This document shows positions 29,192-45,944 of a stretch of 64,000 bases of DNA, one piece after another. Position numbers and translations under genes: made by a program. The notes beneath the pieces are model-generated. The model was not told the DNA's origin and did no database searches. It worked only from the letters and a program-made list of their open reading frames with translations. The stretch is from assembly GCF_009866655.1 (NCBI RefSeq), contig NZ_CP047420.1:62001-126000 (forward strand), written 5' to 3'. How positions within the stretch are numbered: the stretch's first letter is position 1; the number at the start of each line of letters is the position of its first letter. The stretch is from Rathayibacter sp. VKM Ac-2804 (lineage in GTDB: Bacteria; Actinomycetota; Actinomycetes; Actinomycetales; Microbacteriaceae).

Positions 29192-29230
29192 CGGCGGACC
29201 CGGACGAGGGCCCGGGGCCGGGGATCGGAC

Positions 29231-30115
29231 TCAGCCCGTGGTCGTCCGGGTCATGATCGCGACGACGAACAGCCCCGCCCAAAGCGCACCGCAGACCAGC
29301 AGCCGGAGGTTGCCGAGCACGATGTCCTCCGGCGCCGAGGCCCGCCCGCGCTCGATGTCGAGGGCGTAGAGGAAGAGCGCCGCGCCGAACGGCACGACCG
29401 ACGCCATCGACCAGAGCGAGTTCTCGCCGTTGATGAACAGTGCCCACAGCGCGTAGGAGATCATCGTCAGCGATGCGGCGACCGACCAGATGAAGCGCAG
29501 GTAGCCCGGCGTGTAGACCTTGAGGGTCGAGCGGGTGTGGCTCTCCTCCTTGCCCTCGCTCTGCAGCTTCTCGGAGTAGCGCTTGCCCGCGACCATGAAC
29601 AGCGAGCCCGAGGACACCGCGAGCAGGAACCACTGCGTCAGCGGGATGTCCGCGATGGCCGCGCCCGAGATCGCGCGGAGGACGAATCCGCCCGCCACGA
29701 TCAGGATGTCGATGACCGGCTCGTGCTTGAGCCAGAGGCAGTACGAGATCTGCATCACCAGGTAGGCCGCGAGCGTCGCCGCGAACCACGTGAAGCCGAG
29801 GAGGAAGGTCACCAGCACCGGCACGATCATCAGCACGAACGCGGCCGGCCAGGCGACCTTCAGCGGCAGCGCCCCGGACGCGATCGCGCGGAAGCGCTTC
29901 TTCGGGTGCACGCGGTCGGACTCGACGTCGAGCAGGTCGTTGAGGAGGTAGCCGCCGGACGAGGCCAGGCTGAACGCGATCACGCCGACGACGGTCGCGA
30001 CGAGGATCTCGGGCTCGAGGATGCGCGCGGCGGCGACCGGAGCGGCCAGCACCAGGACGTTCTTCAGCCACTGGCGCGGGCGCATGGCGGCGACGAGTGC
30101 GCGGGCGGTGTTCAC
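29231..30115 (-). CDS. Decaprenyl-phosphate phosphoribosyltransferase (DPPR synthase, UbiA family)
   Basis: 294 residues, about nine helices. The first Asp-rich motif NDLLDVESD (59-67), followed by HPKKRFRAIASG, is the DPPR-synthase form of the UbiA motif (the Rv3806c type has NDxxDxxxDxxHPxKR). It transfers phosphoribose from PRPP to a polyprenyl phosphate, the first step to polyprenyl-phosphoryl arabinose. It is divergent from gtrA-dprE1-dprE2, which act later in the same pathway. A 147-base gap holds both promoters. Confidence 0.92.
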   Translation of the reverse strand: MNTARALVAAMRPRQWLKNVLVLAAPVAAARILEPEILVATVVGVIAFSLASSGGYLLNDLLDVESDRVHPKKRFRAIASGALPLKVAWPAAFVLMIVPVLVTFLLGFTWFAATLAAYLVMQISYCLWLKHEPVIDILIVAGGFVLRAISGAAIADIPLTQWFLLAVSSGSLFMVAGKRYSEKLQSEGKEESHTRSTLKVYTPGYLRFIWSVAASLTMISYALWALFINGENSLWSMASVVPFGAALFLYALDIERGRASAPEDIVLGNLRLLVCGALWAGLFVVAIMTRTTTG

Positions 30116-30262: not shown

Positions 30263-30673
30263 ATGCGGACGACCGCGCTGTACGTCGTCTTCGCGATCCT
30301 TGCAACGGCGGTGAATCTGAGCACGCAGATGCTCGTCGAGCTCGCCGTCGACGCGGAGTGGGCCACCGTCGCCGCGGTGCTCGCGGGCACCCTGACGGGG
30401 GTGATCGCCAAGTACGTGCTCGACAAGCGCTTCATCTTCAAGCACGAGACGATGAATGCGGCGCACGGGCTGAAGACGTTCCTCCTCTACGGCGTGATGA
30501 GCGGCGTGACGACCCTGATCTTCTGGGGCTTCGAGTTCGGCTTCGACGCCCTCTTCGGCACGGACCTCGCCCGCTACACCGGGGCCGTCATCGGCCTGGC
30601 CATCGGCTACGTCGCCAAGTACCACCTCGACAAGAACGTCACGTTCTCCGGCCCGCGAGAGGAGCCCGCATGA
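30263..30673 (+). CDS. GtrA-family membrane protein
   Basis: 136 residues, four helices (about 5-27, 35-55, 72-95, 102-122). The GtrA pattern is seen in AKYVLDKRFIF after helix 2 and AKYHLDKNVTF at the end. GtrA proteins are thought to move or bind polyprenyl-linked sugars, and the homologue next to the DprE genes has been linked to arabinan or polyprenyl-arabinose handling. The ATGA overlap with dprE1 means coupled translation. Confidence 0.9.
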   Translation: MRTTALYVVFAILATAVNLSTQMLVELAVDAEWATVAAVLAGTLTGVIAKYVLDKRFIFKHETMNAAHGLKTFLLYGVMSGVTTLIFWGFEFGFDALFGTDLARYTGAVIGLAIGYVAKYHLDKNVTFSGPREEPA

Positions 30674-31968
30674 CCAGCCCCGTCTCCTCCTGGGGCCTGC
30701 TCTCGCGCGACGAGCACCGGGTCACCCGGATCACGAGCGTCGAGCAGGCGCAGGCCGCGCTGGCCGCGGGCGACAGCGGGATCGCCTACGGCCTCGGCCG
30801 CAGCTACGGCGACGTCGCGCTCAACGGCGGCGGCAGGATCTGGGACTTCAGCGGCTTCGACCGCCTCCTGGCCTTCGACGAGGAGACCGGCGTGCTCCGG
30901 GCCGAGCCGGGCGTGCTGCTGCGCGACGTGCAGGCCGTCTTCTCCCCGCGCGGCTGGATGCTGCCGGTCACCCCCGGCACCAAGAACGTGACCCTCGCCG
31001 GCGCGATCGCGAACGACGTGCACGGCAAGAACCACGCCTCCGCCGGCACGATCGGCCGGCACGTGCGCTCCTTCACGCTGCTGCGCAGCGACGGGTCGTC
31101 CTCGCGCTGCACGCCGACCGAGAACGTCGAGCTGTTCGAGGCGACGATCGGCGGCCTCGGGCTCACCGGGCTGATCGTCGAGGTGGAGCTCGGGCTCGCG
31201 CGCGTCCCCGGGCCGTGGCTCGTCAGTGAGGACGTGCCGTTCCAGACCCTCGAGGGGTACCTCGACCTCGTGCACGAGTCGATGGACGTCTTCGAGCACA
31301 CGGTCGCCTGGATCGACGTGACCACGGGCGGCGGGCGCCGCGGCGTCTACTCCCGCGCCGACAGCACGGCCGCCCCGGAGCTGCCCGAGACGCGGCCGGG
31401 CTCGCTGAAGGTGCCCTTCGCCTTCCCGCTGTCGGTCGTCAACCGCGCGACGCTGCCGCTGCTCAACCGCGCCTACTACCGCCTGAAGGCGACCCGCGCC
31501 CGCCGCTCGGTGCAGCACTACGAGCAGTTCAACTACCCGCTCGACGCGATCGAGGGCTGGAACACGATGTACGGCCCGCGCGGCTTCTACCAGTACCAGA
31601 GCACCGTGCCGTGGGAGGGGGCGCTCGAGACGACCCGCGAGATGCTCGCGCTGATCGCGGCCTCGGGCACCGGCTCCTTCCTCGGCGTGCTGAAGACCTT
31701 CGGGGCGCTGGAGTCGCCGGGCCTGCTGAGCTTCCCGGCGCCCGGGGTCTGCTTCGCGCTCGACTTCCCCAACACGCCCGTCGCGCTGCCGCTGTTCGAG
31801 CGCCTCGACGCGCTGGTGCTCGCCGCGGGCGGCCGGCTCTACCCGGCGAAGGACGCGCGCATGACGCGCGAGATGTTCGAGGCCGGCTTCCCGCGCCTCG
31901 CCGAATTCGCCCTCCAGCGCGACCCGGGGATCTCCTCCGGCTTCTCGCGCCGAGTCCTCGGGAGCTGA
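30670..31968 (+). CDS. dprE1: Decaprenylphosphoryl-beta-D-ribose 2'-oxidase
   Basis: 432 residues, VAO-type FAD oxidoreductase. FAD-binding YGLGRSYGDVAL (40-51) and LPVTPGTKNVTLAGAIANDV, then HGKNH (118-122) with the flavin-contact His of DprE1. It oxidises polyprenyl-phosphoribose at C2, the first half of the epimerisation to arabinose. In the C-terminal half PGVCFALDFPN aligns with the Cys387 region of the M. tuberculosis enzyme; by length the Cys position appears to be Ala. Start ATG 30670 overlaps gtrA; dprE2 follows after one base. Confidence 0.93.
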   Translation: MTSPVSSWGLLSRDEHRVTRITSVEQAQAALAAGDSGIAYGLGRSYGDVALNGGGRIWDFSGFDRLLAFDEETGVLRAEPGVLLRDVQAVFSPRGWMLPVTPGTKNVTLAGAIANDVHGKNHASAGTIGRHVRSFTLLRSDGSSSRCTPTENVELFEATIGGLGLTGLIVEVELGLARVPGPWLVSEDVPFQTLEGYLDLVHESMDVFEHTVAWIDVTTGGGRRGVYSRADSTAAPELPETRPGSLKVPFAFPLSVVNRATLPLLNRAYYRLKATRARRSVQHYEQFNYPLDAIEGWNTMYGPRGFYQYQSTVPWEGALETTREMLALIAASGTGSFLGVLKTFGALESPGLLSFPAPGVCFALDFPNTPVALPLFERLDALVLAAGGRLYPAKDARMTREMFEAGFPRLAEFALQRDPGISSGFSRRVLGS

Positions 31969-31969
31969 C

Positions 31970-32719
31970 GTGAGCACTGGTACCCCCTCCAAGATCGTCG
32001 TGGTCGGAGCGACCTCCGCCATCGCCGAGCACACGCTGCGGCTGTGGCTGGGCACGGGCGCGCGCTCGGCGCTGCTGGTCGGCCGCGACGCCGGCCGGCT
32101 GGAGGCGCTGGCGACGGATCTGCGCGTGCGCTTCCCCGCCGCCGCGCTCTCGGTCGCCGCGGTCGACCTGACCGATCCCGCCGCGATCTCCTCGGTCGTC
32201 GCGACCTCGCTCGAGGGCGGCGCCCCCGACTCCGTGCTGATCGCCCACGGCACGATGACGACCCAGGACGAGGCGTCCGCCGACCTCGCCGTCGCCCGCG
32301 ACGTCCTCGTCGTCACCGGGGTCTCGGTGGCCCTCTGGATGGAGGCGTACGCGAACGCGCTGACCTCCGGGAGCATCGGCGTGATCGGCTCCGTCGCCGG
32401 CGACCGCGGCCGCAAGACCAACTACGTCTACGGCTCCGCCAAGGGCCTGGTCGAGCGCTTCGCCCAGGGCCTGCAGCACCGCCTGGCCGGCTCGCGCCTG
32501 TCCGTCGTGCTGATCAAGCCCGGCCCGACCGACACCCCGATGACGGCCTCGCTGAAGCAGAGCGGAGCGTCGCTGGCGCCGGTCGAGTCGGTCGCGAAGG
32601 ACGTCGCCGCCGCGATGGCCTCCGGGCGCGCGGTCGCCTACGCCCCGGCCAAGTGGCGCGTCATCATGACGGTCATCCGCCTGATGCCGTCTCCGATCTT
32701 CAACCGCCTGAACATCTGA
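31970..32719 (+). CDS. dprE2: Decaprenylphosphoryl-2-keto-ribose reductase
   Basis: 249 residues from GTG 31970, one base after the dprE1 stop. SDR features: VVGATSAIAEHTLRLWL (10-26), AHGTM near 91, and catalytic YGSAKG near 153-158. IKPGPTDTPMT is typical of DprE2. It reduces the keto intermediate to polyprenyl-phosphoryl arabinose with NADH. Forms an operon with gtrA and dprE1; a family A repeat starts 4 bases after the stop. Confidence 0.92.
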   Translation: MSTGTPSKIVVVGATSAIAEHTLRLWLGTGARSALLVGRDAGRLEALATDLRVRFPAAALSVAAVDLTDPAAISSVVATSLEGGAPDSVLIAHGTMTTQDEASADLAVARDVLVVTGVSVALWMEAYANALTSGSIGVIGSVAGDRGRKTNYVYGSAKGLVERFAQGLQHRLAGSRLSVVLIKPGPTDTPMTASLKQSGASLAPVESVAKDVAAAMASGRAVAYAPAKWRVIMTVIRLMPSPIFNRLNI

Positions 32720-32723
32720 CGCC

Positions 32724-32763
32724 GGGTCTCGATACGCCCCTCCGGGGCTGCTCGACCAGCATG
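32724..32763. repeat. Family A repeat, single arm, copy 4a
   Basis: GGGTCTCGATACGCCCCTCC ... CTCGACCAGCATG, starting 4 bases after the dprE2 stop. Confidence 0.85.
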
Positions 32764-32795
32764 CAGCGCGGGGCATACCGGCCCGCGCTGTCTAT

Positions 32796-32893
32796 GCAGT
32801 CCCTGGCACGCCTCCCCCATGCTGATCAGGCAGTCCCTGGCAGGCCTTCTTCATGCTGATCGAGTAGCTCGCGGAGCGGGCGTATCGAGATCC
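32796..32893. repeat. 34-bp direct repeat joined to a family A arm (copy 4b)
   Basis: GCAGTCCCTGGCA-GCCT...CATGCTGATC occurs at 32796 and again at 32830 (period 34). The second runs into a left-type family A arm (32852-32893) that ends TATCGAGATCC. This looks like partial duplication of a repeat end. No coding function seen in 32720-33002. Confidence 0.7.
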
Positions 32894-33002
32894 ACCGTCG
32901 TCAGAAGTCCGGTCCACCGCGGCAACGCACGGAACGCGCCGATCTCCGCGTCACGGCCCGCGAAGTCGTGTTCCTCGTTCACCGTCGGGGCACACTGGTC
33001 TG

Positions 33003-33853
33003 ATGACGATCGCTTGGTTCTCAAGGTGCACGACGGGGTGGTCCTCGCCTCCGACAGTGCCACGACGCTGACGCAGACCCGCTCGGACGGCTCGATCGAT
33101 GTCGTCAACATCTACAACAACGCCGACAAGCTCTTCAATCTGCAGAAGGCACTCCCGATCGGCGCGATCACCTGGGGGCTGGGGAACATCGGCCCGGCTT
33201 CCATGTCGACCCTCGCGAAAGACCTCCGGCACCGCTTCACCTCGAGTGACGACGACCGCTGGAGCGTGCTGCCCGGGTCGTACACGATGCAGGAGGTCTC
33301 GCGTCTCGTCGAGGAGTTCCTCTTCGACGAGCGCTACGAGCCCCTTCACCGCGGAGTCGCCGCACACGAGCTGCCGTCGCTCGGATTCCTCACCGCGGGC
33401 TACTCCGCCGGTGCGGACCATCCGCAGATCTTCCACCTCTCGATCGAAGGCGGTCGGGCGACCAGCACTGAGGTGCTCACCGGAGAAGCGGGCGCGATGT
33501 GGTGGGGGCAGCCCGAGGCCATTGCGCGCCTGTTGAACGGCGTGAGCCTCGATACCGGCCCCGCGTTGATCAATCTCGGCCTCGAGCCTTCGCAGGCTCC
33601 GACGGTCGCCGCGCAGTTGCGCGATCAGCTCGCGACGCGCATCGTCTCCCCTGCGATGCCGATCCAGGACGCCGTCGAACTGGCACAATTCCTCGTGTAC
33701 ACGACGATCCAGTTCGTGCGGTTCACCCCGGGGAATCCGACCGTCGGCGGTCCGATCGACATCGCGACCATCACCAAGCACGAGGGCTTCAAGTGGGTGG
33801 CCCGCAAGCACTATTACGACCACGACCTCAATCCACCGCAGGAGACGACATGA
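33003..33853 (+). pseudogene. Proteasome-like Ntn-hydrolase, apparent -1 frameshift after codon 4
   Basis: From ATG 33003 the codons are Met-Thr-Ile-Ala; the frame then continues one base early, at 33014, as LVLKVHDGVVLASDSATT and stays open to TGA 33851-33853. With one base restored (a TT that would be TTT) the reading is 283-284 residues. After Met removal it has Thr1 and Asp17 at proteasome beta spacing, and the DKLFNL Lys follows. Proteasome/HslV-type Ntn hydrolases use Thr1 as nucleophile. TTG 33014 is the only alternative start and would lose Thr1. The small gene downstream overlaps its stop (ATGA). Function of the family member is unknown. Confidence 0.6.
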
Positions 33854-34020
33854 GCAGTCAGAGCTTCCCGGACAGCAACGTCTACCGTTCGCAGAGTCAA
33901 GGCGCTGCAGTCGGCGCCGCACGAGCCACGTCGGGGTCGTACGATCCGCGTCCGAGCCAGGGTACGAAGACGCCGCCGCAGAGGATCGTCCTCCATCCGG
34001 GCGGTACCTCCGCTCGATAG
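33850..34020 (+). CDS. 56-residue Ser/Pro/Gly-rich protein coupled to the Ntn-hydrolase gene
   Basis: Met, then SSQSFPDSNVYRSQSQG..., ending HPGGTSAR. It has no hydrophobic segment, is basic at the end, and is probably disordered. ATG 33850 overlaps the previous stop (ATGA), the main evidence for expression. Its own stop codon (TAG, 34018-34020) lies inside a family A repeat (CTCGATAG), so the repeat may have set the C-terminus. It is not Pup: no GGQ/GGE end. No family recognised. Confidence 0.6.
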   Translation: MSSQSFPDSNVYRSQSQGAAVGAARATSGSYDPRPSQGTKTPPQRIVLHPGGTSAR

Positions 34021-34083
34021 CCCTCCGCGGCTGCTCGACCGGCACATGCTGATCGGGTAGCCCGCAGGGCGGCCGCATCGATA
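34013..34083. repeat. Family A repeat pair, copy 5
   Basis: Right-type arm (CTCGATAGCCCTCCGCGG ... GACCGGCACATG) followed at once by a left-type arm (CATGCTGATCGGGTAGCC ... CATCGATA). The first arm includes the stop codon of the 56-residue protein. Confidence 0.75.
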
Positions 34084-34166
34084 TTCGTGTCTCCCCGTGG
34101 AATCACCTCCGGAAGGGGGATCTGCAAGGGGGTCCGCCGCAGACGGCCGCGTTCTACGCTCGGCGC

Positions 34167-34544
34167 ATGCCCCTCCGCAGTGCTGCGAGTGCCCCCGCCG
34201 TCCTTCCGCAGATCGCCGCGCCCAGCGCTCGACAGCGGGCCGCGGCCGAGGTGCTCGGGCACGTCGTGGTCGCCCTGGCGGTCGGGTCGGCGCTGCTGCT
34301 GCTGGCGTCGGCGAGCGTCGCGGGGCTGCCGTTCCTGCCCGGTGGGGGCCGCGTGCCTCCGTTCGAGGCGTGGTCGCTGATGCGGACCTCGGCGACGGTG
34401 CAGATCGGCGCCGCGGTGCTCGCCGCCGGCCTCGCCGCGCTCGCGCGGGCGGGCGGCTGCCGCGTCCGCGCCGACCGCTGGTGCCTCGTCGCCGCCCTCA
34501 GCGCCGCCGCCGGCGCCGTGCTGCTGGCAGCCCCGCCGCTCTGA
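34167..34544 (+). CDS. Small membrane protein, unrecognised
   Basis: 125 residues with three hydrophobic segments (about 28-52, 68-92, 103-124) and a basic cytoplasmic head. ATG 34167. No family recognised. It is convergent with the exopolysaccharide operon, separated by the double hairpin at 34548-34621. Coding potential is supported by the alternating hydrophobic pattern, not by homology. Confidence 0.55.
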   Translation: MPLRSAASAPAVLPQIAAPSARQRAAAEVLGHVVVALAVGSALLLLASASVAGLPFLPGGGRVPPFEAWSLMRTSATVQIGAAVLAAGLAALARAGGCRVRADRWCLVAALSAAAGAVLLAAPPL

Positions 34545-34547
34545 CGC

Positions 34548-34621
34548 CGCCGAGGCGTCCTCGAACGGTCGAGACGTCCAGGTGGAACGGGACGCCTCGA
34601 CCGTAACGGGACGCCTCGGCG
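34548..34621. terminator. Nested double inverted repeat (family E) between convergent genes
   Basis: CGCCGAGGCGTCC (34548-34560) pairs exactly with GGACGCCTCGGCG (34609-34621). Inside, CGGTCGAGACGTCC (34566-34579) pairs with GGACGCCTCGACCG (34590-34603) with one mismatch. Likely a bidirectional terminator; it shares the word GACGCCTCG four times. Confidence 0.65.
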
Positions 34622-34628
34622 AGCGCCC

Positions 34629-36563
34629 CTACGCCGGCGCCCCGATCGTGGAGTCCTCGTAGTCCTCCGTGAGGCCGTGGGGCGTCTTCTCCCACTTGTG
34701 CGGGCTGAAGACGATCTGCCAGGCCGCGCGCCAGGCCGAGATGGAGTGCAGCACCCAGTAGACGGGGTTCAGGATCGCGAACGCCGCGACCCGCCAGTTG
34801 TAGCGCTTCCACGCCGCGATCCCCGAGACGACGATCATCAGCGTGTTCGAGAAGAGCATGTTCGTCGTCCCCGCGACGATCAGCCACTCCGGCAGATCCA
34901 GCCCCAGGAACTGCACGCCGATGTAGGTGATCACGGTGAAGCCGAGCACCAGCGGGTAGAGCAGGAAGGCGACCGGCGTCCCCATGATCAGAGCCACGAG
35001 GCTCAGCGAGCCCAGCACCCCGTTCACCTTGAACCAGCGGATCGGGTGCCGCGTGTTCACTCCCGCGGTCATCATGTAGCCCTTGATCCACCGGGTGCGC
35101 TGCTTGATCCACGCGGGGACCTCGGCGCACGCCTCCTCCCAGGTGTTGGAGTCGACGACGCCCACCCGGTAGCCGTGCGCGGCCACGCGCAGGCCGAGGT
35201 CGGCGTCCTCCGTGACGTTGTACGGGTCCCAGGCGCCGAGCTCGCGCAGCACGCGGGTCTCGAAGTGGTTCGAGGTGCCGCCGAGCGGGATCGGCAGGTG
35301 CGACTGGTCGAGGCCGGGCAGCATCGCGCCGAACCAGTGCGCGTACTCGACGGCGAACATCCGGGTGAGCACGTTGTAGTCGGCGTTGAAGTAGCTCAGC
35401 GCGCCCTGCAGGCAGACCAGCTGCTTCTGCTCCGGATCCACGTGCTCGCGCTCGAAGGCGTCCTCGCGGAACAGCCGCACGCACTTGCGCAGCTGGTCGG
35501 GGTCGGGCCGGTCCTCCGCGTCGTAGATCACCACGAACTCGCCGCGGGCGAAGCTGAGCCCGTAGTTGCAGGCGCGCGGCTTGGTCTGCGGGCCGCCCGG
35601 GGGCACGATCACCATCCGCACGTACTCCGGCGGGCTCATCCGGCGCACCGCCGCGATCGTCTCGTCGTCGTCGGCCTCGAGCAGCACGAGCACCTCGAGC
35701 TTGGCCTTGGGGTAGTCGAGGGCGCCGAGGTTCACCAGCAGCTTGCTGATGATGTTGGCCTCCTTGTAGGCGGGGACGAGGATCGTGTAGATCGGCAGCT
35801 CCTCGTCGGTCATCCGCGGCGGCGAGACGTCGAGGCCGCGGCGGCCGCGCTCGATCGCCACCTCCTCCTCCCAGGCCTTCACCGAGCTCTGGTTGAGCGG
35901 GGCGCGCAGGCCGGCCAGCGCCTTGAAGGCGATGTTCATCAGGAAGAGCAGGTTCGCCGAGGCGAGCACGATCACGAAGGTGAGGCTCGGCGCCAGCACC
36001 GCGCCGACGATCACGATCGCGGCGACCACGAGCGGAGTGATCACCTGCCAGCGGCGCAGCCCCGACTTGGCCGACTCGTCGCCGCTCTGCACCGCGAGCG
36101 AGTCGGCCGCGCCGAAGAGCAGGGCGGCGCGGCAGGCGTTCTCCACGGCCTGGAAGACGTCCCAGTCGGTCGTGGTCCGCACGGCGACGACCTCGACCTC
36201 GAGCATCGCGCGGGCCTCGGCGAGCATCTCCTCGGTCGGCGGGACGGAGGTGGCGATGACGCCGGTCCCGTCGGACAGCACGCGCCAGGGCAGCCAACCC
36301 GCGCCGACCAGGGTCGAGGCGCCGATGCGGGCCAGCAGCGCGGCTCCCGGCGGCTCCTCGACCAGGTCGATCATCGGCGCGTCCCACTGCTCCGCCAGCG
36401 CCGCGTACATCTCGCGGCGGGTGACGGCGCCGTCGATGATGAGGTGCCGGCCGAGCAGGCCACCCTCGCGCGCCTGCCGGCGCAGGGCCTCGTCGAGCTG
36501 CTCGCTCGTGATCAGGCCGCGGGCGAGCAGGATCTCGCCCACCCGGGCGGTGGCGGTCGCCAT
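34629..36563 (-). CDS. MshEN-GT2 fusion: c-di-GMP-binding-type polysaccharide synthase
   Basis: 644 residues. Residues 7-30 (RVGEILLARGLITSEQ...ALRRQ) and 37-59 (LLGRHLIIDGAVTRRE...ALAEQ) are the two 24-residue motifs of an MshEN domain, an established c-di-GMP receptor. Helices at about 165-205 lead to a GT2 domain: DAED near 347, TEDADLG near 449, QRTRW near 488. The rest is membrane helices. The QxxRW motif marks processive synthases. E. coli NfrB has the same parts in the reverse order. It starts 2 bases after the GT-C stop, in one operon with it and the BcsB-like gene. Confidence 0.9.
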   Translation of the reverse strand: MATATARVGEILLARGLITSEQLDEALRRQAREGGLLGRHLIIDGAVTRREMYAALAEQWDAPMIDLVEEPPGAALLARIGASTLVGAGWLPWRVLSDGTGVIATSVPPTEEMLAEARAMLEVEVVAVRTTTDWDVFQAVENACRAALLFGAADSLAVQSGDESAKSGLRRWQVITPLVVAAIVIVGAVLAPSLTFVIVLASANLLFLMNIAFKALAGLRAPLNQSSVKAWEEEVAIERGRRGLDVSPPRMTDEELPIYTILVPAYKEANIISKLLVNLGALDYPKAKLEVLVLLEADDDETIAAVRRMSPPEYVRMVIVPPGGPQTKPRACNYGLSFARGEFVVIYDAEDRPDPDQLRKCVRLFREDAFEREHVDPEQKQLVCLQGALSYFNADYNVLTRMFAVEYAHWFGAMLPGLDQSHLPIPLGGTSNHFETRVLRELGAWDPYNVTEDADLGLRVAAHGYRVGVVDSNTWEEACAEVPAWIKQRTRWIKGYMMTAGVNTRHPIRWFKVNGVLGSLSLVALIMGTPVAFLLYPLVLGFTVITYIGVQFLGLDLPEWLIVAGTTNMLFSNTLMIVVSGIAAWKRYNWRVAAFAILNPVYWVLHSISAWRAAWQIVFSPHKWEKTPHGLTEDYEDSTIGAPA

Positions 36564-36565
36564 GG

Positions 36566-38248
36566 TCAGCCTCCGAGCCGCTCGTAGATGACGTAGATCC
36601 CCTGCGCGAACACCGGGCGGTAGCGGGTGTCGAAGGAGGAGTCGCGCGTGATCGCGTCGTAGACGAGGTCGGCGACGCCGGTCTCGCTGAGCTCGGGCGC
36701 GTCCGCGGTGGTCACGAAGACCCACTTCGCGTGCGTGTACGGGGCGGCGAGCGCCTCGTCGAACAGCTCGCCGGCCGAGCGGTTGTAGTACTCGGCCAGC
36801 GGCACGCCGATCTCGGGCAGCAGCGCGTTGCCGGCCGCGCTCTCGTCGATCAGGATGCCGCCGCCGTCGTAGTGCTCGCTCAGGAATCGGGCAGCGGCGG
36901 TCGCGCCCGACGCCTCCTTGATCGAGACGTAGCCGGTCGCCTCCGCGATGACGGCGTTGCGGTCCAGGTCCTGCGCCCACCAGGCGGTCTGCGCGCCGAG
37001 CAGCACGAGCACGAGACCGAGGGCGCCCGCGCCGATCCGCGGCAGCCGCCGCAGCGCGTCGACCAGCACGGCGCCCAGCACCGCGAGGAACGGCAGCACC
37101 GACAGCGCGTAGCGGTTGTTCCACCAGTTGGTCGGCAGGGTCTGGTCGTTGTTCATGTGCGTCTGGCCGAGGTAGAGGCTCAGCAGCGAGAAGGCGTAGG
37201 AGACGATCATCAGCCAGATCACGAGCGCGTCGTCCGAGATCCCGCGCCGCCAGGCCAGCACGAGCGCACCGGCGAGGCCGAGCGCGACCGTGAGCAGGCC
37301 CGAGGTCTCGAGGACCGCCCAGTTGTACGACCAGAGCGTCAGCCCCGCGTTGCCCTGGTACGCGAGCAGCCCCGCGTCGGCGACCGCCTTCTGCAGGTTC
37401 GCGGCCGAGTACTGGCCGTTCATGAACTCGAGCGGGTTGCTGTAGACGGCGAAGTTGTAGACCAGCCACCAGACGATGGCGATCAGCGGCAGGATCCCGA
37501 AGGCGCTCGCCATCTTGATCGCGTAGACGAACGACCGCTTCCTCCGCCAGGCGACGATCAGCACCACGAACGTGCCGCCGAAGACCAGCACCCAGCCCTC
37601 GTAGCGCGAGAGCGTCGCGGCCGCGGCGGGCAGGCCGGAGAAGACCATCATCTCGCCGGCGCTGAGGTTGCGCCGGCTGGTGACCCAGTGCGCGAGCCCG
37701 GAGAAGCAGCCGACCATCGTGACGATCAGCACCGGCTCCGTCATCGCGGTCGAGAAGGCGTAGAGCACGCCGGGGTTCGCCAGCACCAGCAGCACCGCGG
37801 TGAGCCGGCCGGCGCGCAGGTGGCCCACCCGCGCCGAGATCCGGTAGACGCCGCAGGCCGTGCCGGCCAGGCAGATCATCCCGAGCAGCCCCGCCGCCCA
37901 GCCCGTGTGCCACAGCCAGAGCGACTGGACGAACGGGATCAGGATCAGGCTCGGCACCGGCAGCCACACCGTGCCGAGCTGGGTGAAGCCGGGCGCCTTC
38001 GAGTCGAAGATGCGCCGCGAGATGGAGAGGTGGCTCTGGGTGTCGGCGTAGGCGAGGTTGATCCCGGAGGAGGTGGTCACCAGGCAGGCCGCGAAGCCCA
38101 CCAGCAGCGAGACCACCAGGATCACGACCGTGCCGGGCACCTGCCGCCCGGTGACGGGCCGGCCGAGGCGGGCCCACGCCTCCCGCCACCAGGGCCGGCG
38201 GGCGGGCGCGCCGGCCACCGGCGGCGGGGCGGCGATCGTGCTGGTCAT
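36566..38248 (-). CDS. GT-C membrane glycosyltransferase (ArnT/PMT/GT39-like)
   Basis: 560 residues, about 11-13 helices. The first outer loop has INLAYADTQSHLSISRRIF (about 63-81) with the Asp expected of GT-C enzymes; a soluble C-terminal portion of about 130 residues follows. GT-C enzymes use polyprenyl-phosphate sugars as donors outside the membrane. The dprE1/dprE2/DPPR-synthase genes 4-9 kb away make such a donor, so polyprenyl-phosphoryl arabinose is a plausible substrate (inference). Tight operon: 8 bases after the BcsB-like gene and 2 before the GT2 gene. Confidence 0.8.
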   Translation of the reverse strand: MTSTIAAPPPVAGAPARRPWWREAWARLGRPVTGRQVPGTVVILVVSLLVGFAACLVTTSSGINLAYADTQSHLSISRRIFDSKAPGFTQLGTVWLPVPSLILIPFVQSLWLWHTGWAAGLLGMICLAGTACGVYRISARVGHLRAGRLTAVLLVLANPGVLYAFSTAMTEPVLIVTMVGCFSGLAHWVTSRRNLSAGEMMVFSGLPAAAATLSRYEGWVLVFGGTFVVLIVAWRRKRSFVYAIKMASAFGILPLIAIVWWLVYNFAVYSNPLEFMNGQYSAANLQKAVADAGLLAYQGNAGLTLWSYNWAVLETSGLLTVALGLAGALVLAWRRGISDDALVIWLMIVSYAFSLLSLYLGQTHMNNDQTLPTNWWNNRYALSVLPFLAVLGAVLVDALRRLPRIGAGALGLVLVLLGAQTAWWAQDLDRNAVIAEATGYVSIKEASGATAAARFLSEHYDGGGILIDESAAGNALLPEIGVPLAEYYNRSAGELFDEALAAPYTHAKWVFVTTADAPELSETGVADLVYDAITRDSSFDTRYRPVFAQGIYVIYERLGG

Positions 38249-38256
38249 GCGCTCGG

Positions 38257-40329
38257 TCAGTCGGTCGAGGAGGGGCGCGCGGCGGGCTGGTCGCCCTCCG
38301 CGATCGGCGCGGATCCCGGCGCGGCGGCGGGATCGGCTGACTCGCCGGCCGCCCGCTCCTGCGCGTCGACGTAGGCGGCGACCTTCCGCGACCGGCGGCG
38401 GCGCGCCAGCCAGCCGAGCAGGATGAGCGCCCCGATCACCACGATCGCGATCACGAACCAGATCGCGTAGGAGGAGTAGTCGTCCTTCACCTCGTCCTGC
38501 GGGGTGATCTCGTTGCTGTCGATCGCGACCGGGTCGCTCTCCGTCGATCCGGAGACGGCGAGGTTGCCGGACAGCGAGGTCCAGCCCTCCTCGGCGGCCC
38601 ATCCGGCGATCGAGGACTGCAGCCCGGAGGACGCGGTCGCGTCGCCGTCCGCGCTCCAGCCGCCCAGCAGCACGATCTCGCGGCCGTCCGTCGTGAAGGC
38701 CTCGAGCGCCGCGTACGGCGCCTCGGTGCCGACGCCGTAGCTGAGGCGCGAGGCGTCGATCGCCGTGAAGGCGGCGAGGCGCAGCGGCGTCTTCAGCGCC
38801 TCGGCCTCGTCGGTGCCGGCGCCCACGACGACCCCGGAGCGGTCCGAGTCGACGAACTCGTCGACTCCGACGACCGAGACGGCGAGGGGGTCGGAGTCGA
38901 CCCGCTGCAGCGCGGTGACGAGGTCGCCGGCGCTGCGCAGGGCGTCGGCGCCGGTCGCGGACCCGCCGAACGCGACGGCGAGCTCGCCGCCGAACGCCTG
39001 CGGGAAGCGGCCGAAGCCCGGGGCCGCGGACTCGCCGCGGACACCGGTCACGGTCGAGCCGGCGCCGTCGACGAAGAACTCGATCGGCACGGAGTCGGCC
39101 GAGCCGATGCAGGCGCCGTCGCTCTCGCGCACGGCCGAGAGCGTCACCGAGAGCCCGTTCGACGCGCTGAGCTGGCCGGTCGGCACCGGCAGCGTCATCG
39201 CGACGTCGGTGTCGGCGCCGAGCACGGTCGAGCCGATCAGGAAGTCGTTCCAGTAGACGTTGGCGGTCGCGGTGATGCCCTCGGGGACGGCGGAGTGCGT
39301 GCCCACGAGGTTCAGCTCGACGCTCGAGACGGGTCCGCCGAACGCGGACTGCGTGATCGTCGTGTAGCTCGTCGACGCCCCGGTGCTGCCGAGGGCGATG
39401 CGCTCGGTGCCGAAGTCGGCCAGCGAGTGCTCGAGCGAGCTCGACGGGACGACCTTCTGCGCGAGGCCGGTGGTGGTCGCGCTCGAGGCCAGGCCGGCGT
39501 ACTCGCTGCCGAGGGCCGCTCCGGCCGCGGCCAGGTCGGCCTCCGCGCCGGTGAGGGTCAGCTCGGGCACGCCGCCGGCGTCGCCGATCGCGCTGACGAC
39601 GTCGCCGTCCCCCGCGGTGAAGCGGACGATGCGGCCCTGCGCGGCGTCGAGGACCGGGCGGCCCTCGGTGGCGCTCTCCTCCGACACGGTGATCGCGGTG
39701 CCGGAGGAGTAGCGCGAGGCGAGCGAGGCGGCGGCCGAGAGCCCCGCGGCGCGCAGGGCGTCGTCGGCGCCGTCGGGCACGACGATCGAGACGCCGGTGA
39801 CCGCGTCCGAGAAGAAGTCGCCGACCGTGGTCGGCGCGGTCGGCGTGCCGTCGACGACGACGCCCAGGTCCGAGACGGTCAGCAGATCCGTCCCGACCTC
39901 GCAGAGCGCGCCGGCCGAGCCGTCGGACCCGCCGAGGCGGACGCCGATCGCGAGCACGCCGTCGACGACGTCGGAGGCCTGGACCGGGGCGTCGATCGCC
40001 GTCGCGGTGGCGGCGTCGAGCGTCTGCACGACGCGGCCCGACACGACGACCGAGAGCTGCCCGGTCAGCGGCTCCAGCGGGGTGAGCGACGCGATCACGC
40101 GGGTCGGCACGACGCCGTCGGCGACCGGGACGGTGACGAACTGCAGCTCGGACCCGGCCGCGACCGAGAGCACGGCCTCGCTCGCGAGGCCCTGGACGGT
40201 GCCGCCGGTGGCCGGATCGACGAGGTCGGCCGCGGCCGCGGGAGACGCGGCGCCGAAGGCGAGGCCGAGGCAGAGGACCGGGACGAGCACCGGGACGAGG
40301 GCGCGTCGAGGCAGGAGCGAGGAAGCCAT
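38257..40329 (-). CDS. BcsB-like secreted, membrane-anchored protein
   Basis: 690 residues: signal peptide (1-33, ending AAAA), a long beta-rich exterior, one helix near 622-645 followed by ARRRRSRK, and a Pro/Ala tail in the cytoplasm. This layout, the ANVYWNDFLIG strand and the linked GT2 gene match the cellulose-synthase regulatory subunit BcsB, which guides the nascent glucan. Sequence similarity is weak, so the call rests on architecture and context. First gene of a three-gene operon; 128 bases downstream of the GGDEF-EAL gene. Confidence 0.7.
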   Translation of the reverse strand: MASSLLPRRALVPVLVPVLCLGLAFGAASPAAAADLVDPATGGTVQGLASEAVLSVAAGSELQFVTVPVADGVVPTRVIASLTPLEPLTGQLSVVVSGRVVQTLDAATATAIDAPVQASDVVDGVLAIGVRLGGSDGSAGALCEVGTDLLTVSDLGVVVDGTPTAPTTVGDFFSDAVTGVSIVVPDGADDALRAAGLSAAASLASRYSSGTAITVSEESATEGRPVLDAAQGRIVRFTAGDGDVVSAIGDAGGVPELTLTGAEADLAAAGAALGSEYAGLASSATTTGLAQKVVPSSSLEHSLADFGTERIALGSTGASTSYTTITQSAFGGPVSSVELNLVGTHSAVPEGITATANVYWNDFLIGSTVLGADTDVAMTLPVPTGQLSASNGLSVTLSAVRESDGACIGSADSVPIEFFVDGAGSTVTGVRGESAAPGFGRFPQAFGGELAVAFGGSATGADALRSAGDLVTALQRVDSDPLAVSVVGVDEFVDSDRSGVVVGAGTDEAEALKTPLRLAAFTAIDASRLSYGVGTEAPYAALEAFTTDGREIVLLGGWSADGDATASSGLQSSIAGWAAEEGWTSLSGNLAVSGSTESDPVAIDSNEITPQDEVKDDYSSYAIWFVIAIVVIGALILLGWLARRRRSRKVAAYVDAQERAAGESADPAAAPGSAPIAEGDQPAARPSSTD

Positions 40330-40457
40330 GGGGCGGTGTTCCGATCGGCATACGGGAGCCCGGGAGGTCCGGCGCTCGAGGATGGAGAGTGGAACGGTCG
40401 TGCACGGACGAGGGCGGAGAACCGCGGAGGTCCGGGAGGAGAAGCCCCGTTCTCGCG

Positions 40458-42791
40458 TCAGTCTAGGCAGTCGCCGACGGCCGATCCGGTGGTCAGCAGC
40501 CGCTGCTCCGCCCCCGTCCGAGTGTCAGGCCGGCCGTAGACGAAACCCTGCACATCGGTCACCCCGAGCTCGCGCAGGGCGACGATCGTCCCCTCGTCCT
40601 CCGCGCCCTCGACGATCATCCGGACCCCGACGGCGACGGCGAACGACTGCATCGCCCGGACGATCTCGCGCTGGCGCATCTCGGTCGTCAGCTCGGCGAT
40701 CAGGGCGCGGTCGAGCTTCACGATGTCGAGCGGGAAGGTCGCGACGGCGAGCGCGGAGGAGCCCTCGGTGCCGAAGTCGTCGAGCGCCAGCAGCACGCCT
40801 CCGTCGCGCAGGGCCTGCGCCTGCGCGCGCAGCGTGTCCGTCGCTCCCGCGAGCGAGCCCTCGCTCAGCTCGAGGCAGAACTGCACGCCCGGGAACCGCG
40901 CGGGGACGGCGGCGAAGAACGGGCCGAGCCGGTCGGCGGCGAGCTGCTCCAGGTCCGCGTTGACGCTCATGCACTCCACCCCGGCCCCGGAGTCGCGGAA
41001 GCAGGCGGCGGCGGACATCGCCTTCTCCACCACCTGGACGGTCAGCTCGTCGAGCAGGCCGGCGTGGCGCACGGTCCGGATGAGCAGGGACGGGTCGATC
41101 CGCCCGAGCGCCGGGTCCTCCAGCCGCACGAGCGCCTCATAGGCCCAGATCCGGTCGGTGCGGAGGTCGACGACGGGCTGGAAGGCGAGGTCGAGGGTGC
41201 GGTCGCGGAGGGCGCGCGACGCGGCCTGGCGGACCGGGTCGGTCAGCACCGAGGTGACGTCCAGGCTGCTCGAGCGCCCGCGGCCCGAGCGGCCCCGGCC
41301 GCGCTTGAGCGCGAGCATGCTGCGGTCGGCCTCGATCACGATGGTCGTCGGGTCCGGCTCCTCGTGCGCCGAGAAGGCGACGCCGACGGTCACGACCGGG
41401 GCGAGCGTGTCGCCGTCGACGGTCGCCGGCTCGCTCACCCGCTCGACCAGGGCCTGCGCCCGGGCGCGCGCGTCCTCGGCCGAGTCGAGTCCGCGCAGGA
41501 TCAGCGCGAACTCGTCGCCGCCGACCCGCGCGGCGAACCCGCCCTCGACGGTGACCTCCGCGAGGCGCTCGCCGACCACGCGCAGCATCTTGTCGCCCAC
41601 GTGGTGCCCGCGGCCGTCGTTGAGCTCCTTGAAGTCGTCGAGGTCGAGGAAGAGCACGGCGATGCCCTCGAAGGGCGTCCGGTCGCGGTTGGCGGCGACG
41701 AGCGCCCCCTGGAACGCGCGCTGGTTCGGCAGCCCGGTCAGCGCGTCGTGGTCGACGGAGCGCCGCAGCGACTCGACGTCGTAGCGGGTGGCGAGCGTGT
41801 CGGCGCCCATGTGCGCGAGGGCGTCGAGGATCTGCTCGTCCTCGGCGTCGAACGGGACCGCGCTGACCCGCTTGGACGCGACGACGTAGCGGGTCCGGCC
41901 GTCGGGAAGGACCATGGCCGAGGCGATCTCGCTCCCGGAGGCCGGCTCGTCCCGCACCTCGATGGCGTCCGCCTCGATCGAGGTCCGCGCATGCACGACG
42001 ATCTTCCGCTCGGCCTGCGCCACGGTCCCCCAGGGCAGCCCGAGCGCCGCGTCGAGGACGCCGGAGAGCCGGCGCCGCACCCGGCCCACCTCGATCCGCT
42101 TCGCGACGCTGAAGACCAGCGCGCCGACCACGAGGACGACCATCGGGCTCTGCTCGATCGCGGGGTCCCCCGCCATCGCCGGCACGACGACCGCGTCGAG
42201 GAACCAGACGACCGTGCTGAGCGCCCAGACGAGGAGGAGATAGGCCCCGACCCGCTTGGGCGCGAGGGCGCCGAAGCCGAGCTCCCACTGCATCCCCCAG
42301 CGGCCGCGCTGGCGGACCAGGTCGACGAGCAGGATCACGGCGAGGAAGAGGGCACTGGCCGCGAGCAGCGCGATCGGCGGCGTCAGCGCGGCCCTCGTCG
42401 CCTGGAACACGGTCACGAAGAGCAGGGCGGCGAGCGAGCCGAGACCGGTGACGTAGCCGGCCACCGCGAGGCTCCGGGTCTGCAGCAGCTGCGTGACGAG
42501 GCTCGCCGCCGTCCACACGCCGAGCAGGCGGAACGGGTCGGCCTCCGGGGCCATGATCACGAGGAGCGTGACCGTCAGCCCGGCGATCGGCATCCCCGAG
42601 CGGCGGCCGAGGTTCATCCGCAGCGACGCGGTGAGGGCGACGGCGACCCCGAACGCGGCGACGAACGCCCAGCTGATCGGCGGAGTGATGATCAGCAGCG
42701 CGGTCGCCCGGGCCACGAGGACGAGCGCGAAGACGGTCAGCGCACCCGCGATCGCGATGTCGAGGAGGCCCAGCTCGCGCGTACGGTGCAT
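40458..42791 (-). CDS. Membrane GGDEF-EAL protein (c-di-GMP synthesis/breakdown)
   Basis: 777 residues from ATG 42791. N-terminal helices (about 1-245, MASE-like), a short GAF-like region, then GGDEF with RVGGDEFALIL (near 423, intact) and EAL with YEALVRLED (near 551), ELSEGS, LALDDFGTEGSSALA, KLDRAL and EGAEDEG. Both active-site sets look complete, so it may make and degrade c-di-GMP. The linked MshEN synthase is the obvious local target (inference). It shares a 122-base intergenic region with the divergent beta-helix gene. Confidence 0.9.
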   Translation of the reverse strand: MHRTRELGLLDIAIAGALTVFALVLVARATALLIITPPISWAFVAAFGVAVALTASLRMNLGRRSGMPIAGLTVTLLVIMAPEADPFRLLGVWTAASLVTQLLQTRSLAVAGYVTGLGSLAALLFVTVFQATRAALTPPIALLAASALFLAVILLVDLVRQRGRWGMQWELGFGALAPKRVGAYLLLVWALSTVVWFLDAVVVPAMAGDPAIEQSPMVVLVVGALVFSVAKRIEVGRVRRRLSGVLDAALGLPWGTVAQAERKIVVHARTSIEADAIEVRDEPASGSEIASAMVLPDGRTRYVVASKRVSAVPFDAEDEQILDALAHMGADTLATRYDVESLRRSVDHDALTGLPNQRAFQGALVAANRDRTPFEGIAVLFLDLDDFKELNDGRGHHVGDKMLRVVGERLAEVTVEGGFAARVGGDEFALILRGLDSAEDARARAQALVERVSEPATVDGDTLAPVVTVGVAFSAHEEPDPTTIVIEADRSMLALKRGRGRSGRGRSSSLDVTSVLTDPVRQAASRALRDRTLDLAFQPVVDLRTDRIWAYEALVRLEDPALGRIDPSLLIRTVRHAGLLDELTVQVVEKAMSAAACFRDSGAGVECMSVNADLEQLAADRLGPFFAAVPARFPGVQFCLELSEGSLAGATDTLRAQAQALRDGGVLLALDDFGTEGSSALAVATFPLDIVKLDRALIAELTTEMRQREIVRAMQSFAVAVGVRMIVEGAEDEGTIVALRELGVTDVQGFVYGRPDTRTGAEQRLLTTGSAVGDCLD

Positions 42792-42913
42792 GCTGGCATG
42801 GTAGGCGGTGGTCCGACGCGGGGCACCCGGGCCCGGCTGTCGACGATCCCTGCGGTCCGAACGCCCCAGTTCGGAGGTCTGCACGCGGTGGCGCGGCGCA
42901 GGACTGTGAGCCC

Positions 42914-44164
42914 ATGCCTCCCCTTACCGCTCTGACTGCCGACCTCACCCGTCGCAGCCTCTTCGCCTCCCCCCTGGGCGTCGCTCTGGCCGATTCCGCC
43001 CCCTCCGACCCCGTCCTGCACTCCGAGATCGCCGCACCGGGCGGGGTCGCCGGCCTCGACTCCACCGCCACCGTCCCCGTCGCCCAGCTGCCCGAGGCGG
43101 TCCGCACCGTCTCCGGCGAGCGCCCCGTCGCGAAGGGCGAGCTCGTCTACAACGTCCAGGACTACGGCGCGACCGGCGACGGCAGCACCGACGACCTCCC
43201 CGCCATCGACGCCGCGATCGACGCGGCCGTCGCCAGCTACGGCGGTGTCGTGTACTTCCCGCGCGGCATCTACCGCATCGCCGGTTCGATCGGCCGCGCC
43301 GGGGGCCTCGCGAGCATCGCCTTCCGCGGCGCGGGCGAGCTGTCCACGCGGATCCGCTCGCTGACGAACGCCCCCGTCGTCACCGGCGCCTTCTCCGCCT
43401 GCCGCTTCGACAACCTGATCCTCGACGCGAACGACCTCGGCTCGCCCTGCGTCTCCGCGCACCTGGACAAGACCGTGCTCGACTCGCTGCAGCTCTACGG
43501 CTGGACCGGCTACGGGATGCGCCTGAACGACGGCACCTTCGGCGACCTCGGCCTGCTCAACCGCATCCAGCGCTGCAGCATCGACCAGTGCACGGGCATC
43601 GGCATCTGGACGGGCTACCGGATGATCGACTCCTGGATCGTCGAGAACAACATCGGCGCGAGCTACGCCGACCTCTCGATCGAGGGCGGTCCGATCCGCA
43701 TCCTCGGCAACCACCTCGACGGCTCGCCGCAGATCAACATCGAGCTGCGCGGCAACCGCCGCGTCACGATCGCGAACAACATCATGGAGGGGGCGCGCAA
43801 GCAGTCCCTCGTCTACACGATGCCGCCGTGGCTGACCGAGGACCTCGCGCAGATCCAGATCGTCGGCAACGCGATCAGCAACGGCGGCAAGGCCGCGGCG
43901 AACACCTACCCCGCCATCGCGATCCTCGGCGTCTCGCCGACCGCCCGGACCGTCGGCTTCAGCATCACCGGCAACATCTTCGCCTGCGAGGACGCCGGCT
44001 CCGGCTGGACCCACTGCGTCGAGGCCCTGAACGCCCGCGCCGTCTCCGTCCTCGGCAACCAGTGGGCGACCGGCCACGTGAACGCCAAGCCGGTCCGCGC
44101 CGTCGGCAGCACGGCCTACGAGGTGATCGGCAACCACGGCGACAACGCGGTGAAGACCACGTAG
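42914..44164 (+). CDS. Right-handed beta-helix (pectate-lyase-3-like) protein
   Basis: 416 residues. VQDYGATGDGSTDDLPAI (about 77-94) and GGVVYFPRGIYRIAGS (about 107-122) are the entry of the pectate_lyase_3/GH28-type beta-helix, followed by coils rich in Asn (NNIMEG, GNAISNGG, GNIFACE). Such proteins bind or cut polysaccharides. The N-terminus has LTRRSLFASPLGVALADSA, which could be a Tat-like or lipoprotein-free signal (uncertain). Divergent from the c-di-GMP gene, so a link to the exopolysaccharide is plausible. Confidence 0.75.
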   Translation: MPPLTALTADLTRRSLFASPLGVALADSAPSDPVLHSEIAAPGGVAGLDSTATVPVAQLPEAVRTVSGERPVAKGELVYNVQDYGATGDGSTDDLPAIDAAIDAAVASYGGVVYFPRGIYRIAGSIGRAGGLASIAFRGAGELSTRIRSLTNAPVVTGAFSACRFDNLILDANDLGSPCVSAHLDKTVLDSLQLYGWTGYGMRLNDGTFGDLGLLNRIQRCSIDQCTGIGIWTGYRMIDSWIVENNIGASYADLSIEGGPIRILGNHLDGSPQINIELRGNRRVTIANNIMEGARKQSLVYTMPPWLTEDLAQIQIVGNAISNGGKAAANTYPAIAILGVSPTARTVGFSITGNIFACEDAGSGWTHCVEALNARAVSVLGNQWATGHVNAKPVRAVGSTAYEVIGNHGDNAVKTT

Positions 44165-44169
44165 CCGTC

Positions 44170-44406
44170 GGCCGCCGGCCGAGCAGCCCCGCAGGGGCGC
44201 GTCCATGCTGGTCGAGCAGCCCCGAAGGGGCGTATCGAGACCCACCCACCCCCGGGAGGGCGGATCTGCAGACCCGCCTCCCGGTGACGCCGGATCTCGA
44301 TACGCCCGCTCCGCGGCCTACTCGATCAGCATGGAAGGGCCGCCCGCTCACTCCCCGCCCCGTTGCATGCTGGTCGAGCGGCCCCGTCGGGGCGCATCGA
44401 GACCCA
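44170..44406. repeat. Family A repeat cluster, copy 6 (composite element plus extra arms)
   Basis: A partial arm (44177-44202) precedes a left arm (44204-44243), a core containing GGATCTGCAGACCC, and a right arm (44291-44333), together 130 bp like copies 1 and 8. Another left arm follows at 44366-44404. The cluster fills the whole gap of 273 bases. Confidence 0.85.
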
Positions 44407-44437
44407 CCCATCGCCCGACCCGTGCCACCCTGTCCGC

Positions 44438-44821
44438 ATGCCCCGACTCGACGCCTCCGTCACCGCGCACGTCGACGCGATGCACCACCCGCGCCGCGAC
44501 CAGATCGAGCGCACGCGCGAGGCGGTCCTCGCCGCCGACGAGCGCCTCATCGAGTCGGTGAAGTGGAACGCCCCGAGCTACGCGATCGGCGCGCACCTGG
44601 TGACCCTCCGCCTCCGCCCCGGCGACCGCGTCGAGGTGATCCTGCACCGCGGCACCGCGCCCCTCCCGGACCGTCGCCTCGCCGACGCCCTGTCCGACCC
44701 CGACCACCGCCTCGACTGGCGCGCCCCCGACCGCGCCGTCCTGGCACTCGCCCCCGGCGAGGACCCGTCCTGGCTCACCCGTCTCGTCGCACAGTGGCTG
44801 GCGGCCATCGCCCCGCGCTGA
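44438..44821 (+). CDS. DUF1801 (YdhG-like) protein
   Basis: 127 residues. VDAMHHPRRDQIERTREAVL, then SVKWNAPSYAIGAHLVTLRL (about 48-67) is the YdhG_co core. The family is of unknown function, related to iron-chaperone frataxin-like folds. ATG 44438. It stands alone after the repeat cluster; its neighbour is convergent. Confidence 0.85.
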   Translation: MPRLDASVTAHVDAMHHPRRDQIERTREAVLAADERLIESVKWNAPSYAIGAHLVTLRLRPGDRVEVILHRGTAPLPDRRLADALSDPDHRLDWRAPDRAVLALAPGEDPSWLTRLVAQWLAAIAPR

Positions 44822-44845
44822 CTCGCTCGCCCCTCTCCCGACCTC

Positions 44846-44925
44846 CGGCACGCGGATCCACCTCCGGCACGCCGGAACCGCCCGGTCCCGCGAGCCGAAC
44901 CCGATCCCGCGAGCCCGAGGTCCTC
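44846..44925. repeat. Family B intergenic repeat, copy 3
   Basis: CTCCGGCACGCGGATCC and CTCCGGCACGCCGGAACC are followed by CCCGCGAGCCGAACC and CCCGCGAGCCCGAGG; the two halves are near-inverses. It lies between convergent genes and could terminate both. Confidence 0.7.
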
Positions 44926-44950
44926 CCGAGCCGCGCACCCGCCCCGCGCG

Positions 44951-45868: not shown

Positions 45869-45944
45869 GGTGCTCGTTCCGTCCGGGGGTGCCTCCACCG
45901 TAGCCACCGCCCGCGCGCCCCGCCCGTCCCGCTACCGTCGAGCG

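Follow-up and report, generated by a model that had tools for sequence, protein, structure and literature searches.

A 64,000-nucleotide stretch of Rathayibacter sp. VKM Ac-2804 (contig NZ_CP047420.1, positions 62,001 to 126,000; hereafter the window) carries four consecutive genes on the minus strand that probably constitute a Gram-positive exopolysaccharide operon of the synthase-dependent type, gated by cyclic di-GMP (c-di-GMP) and including a GT-C enzyme that may decorate the polymer. The row is headed by a GGDEF-EAL enzyme (40458..42791), followed by a protein with the fold of BcsB (38257..40329), a transmembrane glycosyltransferase of the GT-C fold (36566..38248) and a family 2 glycosyltransferase (GT2) synthase with an N-terminal MshEN domain (34629..36563). 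The genes are separated by 128, 8 and 2 bp, respectively. A first-pass annotation made from the letters alone had proposed a c-di-GMP-triggered synthase under local control by its GGDEF-EAL neighbour. The coordinates and strands it gave for these genes and for a divergent fifth open reading frame (ORF) were verified, and its 8- and 2-base spacing of the last three genes was recomputed to the same values. The four-gene row stands as first described, although the locus may also include a block of lipid-linked-sugar genes at 29231-32719.

The GT2 synthase joins MshEN to a catalytic domain at residues ~255-500, as indicated by Pfam, NCBIfam, profile and alignment comparisons. The c-di-GMP motif is found at residues 7-59 (NCBIfam NF053729, 57.4 bits, cut-off 38) and the Pfam domain PF05157 at residues 61-143 (31.1 bits, cut-off 23.1). 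The MshEN layout, two 24-residue motifs joined by a 5-residue linker, is present, as are 11 of the 12 key residues, the second arginine being lost. In a comparison of a GT2-family profile with the PDB, the matches to chains of MshE, PilB and PilF fall inside positions 5-172 and those to BcsA inside positions 255-566. DAED, TED and QRTRW are invariant in all 24 aligned sequences, that of the window included, in agreement with the QxxRW-bearing MshEN-GT2 synthase recognized at first pass. The available text of PMC5013675 gives binding rules for MshEN, including eight positions changed in the non-binding XpsE; relative to these, the synthase departs clearly only at R38, and L54 is a Met. Judged from its residues, the MshEN of the synthase is a predicted c-di-GMP-binding domain, and gating of the synthase by c-di-GMP is likely. 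The synthase has no Pfam match to PilZ at E 0.1, and its scores against the equivalog models for CelA (TIGR03030, 40.1 bits, cut-off 699.1) and NfrB (NF008411, 25.6 bits, cut-off 1170) lie below the cut-offs.

The next two proteins were recognized by their predicted folds. Neither has a Pfam match, PF03170 included in the case of the BcsB-like protein, and sequence-profile searches of the PDB returned nothing for either family; only fold comparison did. The AlphaFold model of the BcsB-like protein is of moderate confidence (predicted local distance difference test (pLDDT) 69.7, predicted template modelling score 0.55), and its first 22 Foldseek matches in the PDB are BcsB chains or, by title, BcsB-containing entries (E 6e-24 to 3e-16, template modelling (TM) score over the query 0.29-0.48). 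The protein ends in a C-terminal anchor helix, and a signal peptide was read by eye. PF03170 is carried by seven of 36 listed relatives at 39-40% identity. The closest homologue among the matches listed, from Rathayibacter sp. VKM Ac-2835, is 99% identical. The GT-C model (pLDDT 89.9) matches ALG12, DPY19, OST and ArnT (E 2.7e-6 to 2.2e-4, TM score over the query 0.47-0.56). Its Asp 69 is invariant in 34 sequences, and we take it to be the candidate catalytic aspartate of the first outer loop. Structure prediction, suggested at first pass as a check, supports the BcsB-like and GT-C folds proposed there.

The operon type is real and widespread. When named genomes were scanned once with the alignment of GT2 sequences, at least 554 loci were confirmed, of which the best 80 were used (loci and genomes are numbered with L and G, respectively). 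The BcsB-like, GT-C and GT2 genes occur together in 52 of the 80, as found with profiles iterated on the loci, and these trio loci belong mostly to Actinobacteria and Chloroflexota. Forty have the order BcsB-GT-C-GT2; the order is BcsB-GT2-GT-C in nine, all from Chloroflexota, and GT-C-BcsB-GT2-GT-C in two from Gemmatimonadota, while the arrangement is inverted in a Microbacteriaceae metagenome-assembled genome (MAG; L026). Other genes can intervene, as in L032, where the GT2 domain starts ~3.6 kb past the GT-C gene. A single-sequence search finds GT-C in 47 loci and the BcsB-like gene in 52; the GT-C matches in Chloroflexota entered with profile iteration and mostly cover less than half of the profile. 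The first-pass annotation had made its reading depend on co-occurrence of the genes in relatives and had suggested a search for the same order in other Microbacteriaceae. The genes do recur together in relatives, but the operon is not confined to that family, within which the synthase has a patchy distribution: of 249 genomes, 37 show matches, 33 of them starting at position 85 or earlier, and four genomes with short, catalytic-only matches were left unused. Two MAGs, L044 (a trio locus labelled Acidobacteria) and L057 (Acidimicrobiaceae), have near-identical GT2 sequences, making one label or bin doubtful. In L004, the intact GT2 gene is followed ~1.4 kb downstream by a detached copy of its C-terminal part (13341-13715).

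The enzyme heading the row matches both GGDEF and EAL in Pfam and NCBIfam, and by eye the alignment retains the motif residues, as had been claimed. Its N-terminal part appears hydrophobic by eye, and an alternative ORF start lies at 42884. Two GGDEF genes were found in the genome of the window, the operon copy being one of them; both proteins also have EAL, and the domains alone fix the sign of neither. Of 15 Rathayibacter genomes, none less than 92% complete, nine have the synthase and the identical nine have any GGDEF gene, so the synthase does not occur without GGDEF in this set; these counts are of genomes and not of independent losses. Five of the nine have two GGDEF genes, one of which is in the operon ~5 kb from GT2, and in two others (G238 and G827) the operon copy is the sole GGDEF gene. 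In one Rathayibacter locus (L155, 12122-15749; genome G821), the GGDEF-EAL gene is absent between the BcsB-like and beta-helix genes and a GGDEF-EAL gene is kept elsewhere. In that of Rathayibacter sp. VKM Ac-2630 (L005, 6157-9995), a search of the locus found no GGDEF gene, and the genes for the BcsB-like protein and for GT-C are each split into two frames, reflecting either decay or sequencing error.

The association extends beyond the genus. The search for GGDEF genes covered the genomes that hold 50 of the 80 loci, and 36 loci entered an enrichment test (three GGDEF-negative and 11 others were omitted). Of these 36, 21 contain a GGDEF gene, compared with ~1.1 expected by chance given how many GGDEF genes each genome has; with one locus per genus, the count is 11 of 21 against 0.86 expected. 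In L006, L023, L025 and L030, the local gene, its GGDEF motif intact, is the only one found in the genome and is therefore the cyclase, if a GGDEF enzyme makes c-di-GMP.

The MshEN motif also tends to follow the GGDEF status of the genome. Motif retention was measured by the 12 key residues (cut at 8 of 12) and by a 53-column model (cut at 45 bits), the latter because a residue count of 8 can also arise by itself at odd positions (L103, L104 and L107; 9 of 2000 shuffles score at least 8). Synthases scoring at least 800 bits against the GT2 profile were considered operon-type, with the best copy taken per genome. All three cuts were chosen after the scores had been seen. A second genome search matched 33 of 393 genomes, 23 of which had matches starting at position 140 or later and were not used, and 33 of 147 Nocardioides genomes matched, with six non-operon-type cases excluded. 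The key-residue test started from 92 genomes, nine of which were removed for identical C-terminal 400 residues, and omitted GT2 fragments starting past position 190. At least 8 of 12 residues are kept in 46 of 59 GGDEF-positive genomes versus 0 of 24 GGDEF-negative ones; a recheck of 22 of the negative genomes at E up to 1 gave six weak matches, none above the family cut-off. With the 53-column model and Nocardioides added, the motif is kept in 49 of 74 positive versus 0 of 28 negative genomes (Fisher 1e-10, relatedness ignored). Among operon-type synthases, all 37 from positive genomes keep it and all three from negative genomes have lost it (Fisher 1e-4, relatedness ignored), the three being those of Nocardioides szechwanensis (L028), Nocardioides sp. 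GY 10127 (L032) and the 1.4-Mb Microbacteriaceae MAG (L026). On a tree of the catalytic domain, the motif state changes nine times and the GGDEF state seven times. A hidden C-terminal MshEN as in NfrB was also considered for the motif-less synthases, but a whole-ORF scan with the 53-column model found none.

These results, namely the matching nine of 15 Rathayibacter genomes, motif retention and the 21 of 36 loci with a GGDEF gene, support the earlier proposal of a c-di-GMP-triggered synthase controlled by its neighbour, although the link of the motif to GGDEF is not significant when relatedness is taken into account. A separate GT2 subfamily of Microbacteriaceae (L096-L108 and L126-L132) has an MshEN-like N terminus with 4-6 of the 12 key residues in most rows and occurs in GGDEF-positive and GGDEF-negative genomes alike; two of its members (L103 and L104) lack the MshEN-like N terminus.

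A possible donor pathway adjoins the operon. The block at 29231-32719 comprises a decaprenyl-phosphate phosphoribosyltransferase of the UbiA family (DPPR synthase; 29231..30115, minus strand; NF008978, 335 bits, cut-off 207), a GtrA family protein that is a candidate lipid-sugar flippase (30263..30673, plus strand; NF037976, 165 bits, cut-off 50), a DprE1-like flavin adenine dinucleotide oxidase (30670..31968, plus strand; NF053785, 337 bits, below the cut-off of 500) and a DprE2-like short-chain dehydrogenase/reductase (31970..32719, plus strand; NF053786, 131 bits, below the cut-off of 250). The DprE genes are convergent to GT2. In mycobacteria, the route through DPPR synthase, DprE1 and DprE2 yields decaprenyl-phospho-arabinose. 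Three Subtercola loci and the loci L003, L005, L007 and L155-L157, assigned to Rathayibacter, have this block next to the operon; searches of L004, with a full flank, and of L006, with a short one, did not find it. Loci of Nocardioides, Pseudoclavibacter and the Microbacteriaceae MAG L026 contain a GtrB-type gene, in most cases together with GtrA, and both genes occur in L022, L025, L026, L028, L030 and L076. In the window, GtrA was found and GtrB was not identified. The lipid-linked-sugar gene of L025 matches sll0501 (5eke, 5ekp) at E 3e-74. Overall, such genes are present in 14 of the 52 trio loci and in none of the 28 remaining GT2 loci, some of which are short; this suggests that the GT-C enzyme uses lipid-linked sugars. 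It is plausible, on these gene neighbourhoods, that it decorates the polymer outside the cell from such donors.

From the gene content, folds, motifs, conservation and GGDEF tie computed here, we infer an order of events running from binding and activation to the polymer and its donor. c-di-GMP would be made by the neighbouring GGDEF-EAL enzyme or by another encoded elsewhere, and would bind the N-terminal MshEN of the synthase and switch on polymerization. The GT2 domain would then build the chain from a nucleotide sugar and extrude it, and the BcsB-fold protein would receive and guide it outside the membrane. There, the GT-C enzyme may add side sugars from a polyprenyl-phosphate donor; in Rathayibacter this is perhaps decaprenyl-phospho-arabinose, made by the neighbouring DPPR synthase, DprE1 and DprE2 and flipped by GtrA.

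The genes could instead form a polysaccharide operon in which MshEN is structural or aids assembly, and GGDEF and synthase are linked only through shared ancestry or ecology. Three of the points that weigh against c-di-GMP gating favour such a role. At the position of the second MshEN arginine (R38 in MshE), the synthase has Leu, and most members have lost the arginine (Arg in 8 of 46 intact ones). Of five independent pairs differing in GGDEF, two to three (once one) behave as predicted and none is opposed, which is not significant. The motif is also degraded in the Microbacteriaceae subfamily, in GGDEF-positive and GGDEF-negative genomes alike. Other points bear on gating in the same sense: in 25 of the 74 GGDEF-positive genomes no GT2 has a good motif, and these include members of that subfamily as well as L036, L040, L044 and L057, which have a poor motif or none and become exceptions once the profile threshold falls below 800 bits; and two of the nine synthase-bearing Rathayibacter genomes (G821 and G823) lack the GGDEF-EAL gene at the locus, with the other GGDEF copy remaining. 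Moreover, L138 (47.2 bits) and L022 (54.9 bits), each with 7 of 12 residues and from genomes holding 17 and 21 GGDEF genes, barely exceed the 45-bit cut and also turn into exceptions at 60 bits, and Nocardioides sp. NP33 (L030 and L035) has three operon-type copies, one with the motif and two without. Because of these two members near the cut and the motif-less extra copies of NP33, our confidence in a c-di-GMP-gated operon was slightly lowered. Nevertheless, a structural MshEN sits poorly with the concordance of 40 of 40 operon-type synthases, three losses included, with synthase and GGDEF being present or absent together across the 15 Rathayibacter genomes, and with a local GGDEF enrichment that spans genera, and we consider it unlikely.

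Marginally less likely again is that GT2 is non-processive and, together with GT-C, glycosylates an existing surface polymer or protein, the BcsB-fold protein being a scaffold. The adjoining lipid-linked-sugar genes do resemble Gtr-type extracellular glycosylation as described in the available text of PMC13390465, but QRTRW, a catalytic domain matching BcsA and a BcsB-fold partner are marks of processive synthases, and hydrophobic stretches, seen by eye only, flank the catalytic domain on both sides. A polymer is the likely product. The donor is a closer call. That the block is a chance neighbour from another pathway, with GT-C using a different donor, falls only a little short of an even chance: it was not found in the flanks of Paenarthrobacter, Pseudarthrobacter, Alpinimonas, Glutamicibacter and others, nor in L004, lying near the operon in two genera only, and the DprE1 and DprE2 assignments are below their cut-offs. 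On the other hand, the same block adjoins the operon in both of those genera, and the GtrB genes of Nocardioides, Pseudoclavibacter and the MAG have no counterpart in the 28 non-trio loci. For Rathayibacter, the c-di-GMP-gated operon can be taken further, to a joint proposal that we hold only tentatively: c-di-GMP would be a messenger with a single client, one or two GGDEF-EAL enzymes existing to run one synthase; a BcsAB-like extruder would have merged with Gtr-like lipid-arabinose decoration; and signal and synthase would be gained and lost together.

Several other features surround the operon. The divergent gene upstream (42914..44164, plus strand) encodes, by domain search, a beta-helix protein of the rhamnogalacturonase/pectate-lyase type, in keeping with the polysaccharide-type neighbour first described, and is perhaps secreted (RRSLF near the N terminus, by eye). 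It adjoins the BcsB-like or GGDEF-EAL gene in Rathayibacter loci and is near GGDEF/EAL genes in two Subtercola loci. Between DprE2 and GT2 sits a 344-aa ORF (32819-33853) with no Pfam or NCBIfam match at E 0.001, and it is unmatched in the compared loci, other Rathayibacter included, as if inserted here. A dispersed intergenic repeat with the core GGGTCTCGATACGCCC...GCTGCTCGACCAGCATG occurs at 32718-32914, 34021-34044 and 44171-44415; inverted copies flank both ends of the 32.7-44.4 kb block, with 40-nt arms that are 98% complementary. No Rfam match to a known riboswitch was found in 28000-46000, and a scan around the operon found no promoter-like sites. Terminator signals were dropped, there being three terminator-like sites against a shuffled mean of 1.5 (standard deviation 1.3). 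Farther away, one part of the ORF at 23843-25240 resembles a MacS-like histidine kinase and another segment weakly resembles PspC; both matches score below their cut-offs.

We judge the use of c-di-GMP in actinobacteria outside Streptomyces to be little studied. The titles and abstracts surveyed on MshEN, BcsB, GtrA/GtrB, DprE1 and c-di-GMP in actinobacteria, a partial and mainly open-access coverage, do not describe this operon. A similarly partial literature search found no publication on Rathayibacter and c-di-GMP together, and mentions of c-di-GMP with Microbacteriaceae are scant (three publications, with one to three mentions apiece). The locus offers a concrete candidate effector, an adjacent enzyme and genomes in which a single GGDEF gene was found, where the question of one cyclase for one synthase is directly testable. 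One further prediction is a class of polymers that are gated by c-di-GMP and decorated with sugars from lipid-linked donors.

Among known systems, BcsA-BcsB shares the GT2 catalytic core, a BcsB-fold partner and control by c-di-GMP through a domain joined to GT2. It differs in that MshEN here replaces PilZ and a GT-C gene is added, as noted at first pass. Gram-positive systems that contain BcsB, ydaJKLMN of Bacillus and pssA-E of Listeria, likewise combine GT2, a BcsB-like protein and a c-di-GMP receptor, but their receptor is a separate degenerate GGDEF protein, unlike the GT2-joined MshEN here. Synthase-dependent polysaccharide operons more generally are surveyed in PMC7112194, as far as its accessible part goes. 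One homologue bears the Joint Genome Institute name XagB; in Xanthomonas, the XagB polysaccharide gene set is under the HD-GYP protein RpfG, according to the accessible part of PMC3609779.

The MshEN-GT2 architecture itself is already known from NfrB of E. coli (NfrBA-YbcH), where c-di-GMP control of such an enzyme is a real design, as described in the available portion of PMC8669469. Both synthases have a GT2 with DxD, TED and QxxRW together with MshEN, and a GGDEF gene is linked to NfrB in most pseudomonads (PMC8669469). However, the MshEN of NfrB is C-terminal, compared with residues 7-59 and 61-143 here, and its partner is the outer-membrane protein NfrA, whereas BcsB-like and GT-C genes stand beside the window's GT2; its homologues are predominantly gamma- and betaproteobacterial and rarely Gram-positive (PMC8669469). 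The GT-C side of the operon in part resembles Gtr-type glycosylation, in which a GT-A enzyme, a GtrA flippase and a GT-C enzyme act together and which has a GtrA-type example in Actinoplanes; the available portion of that source makes no mention of c-di-GMP (PMC13390465). GT-C is likewise found with GtrA here, and additionally with GtrB in Nocardioides and other loci, but it is coupled to an MshEN-GT2 synthase, and the donor genes of Rathayibacter and Subtercola are those of DPPR synthase and DprE1/DprE2-like enzymes.

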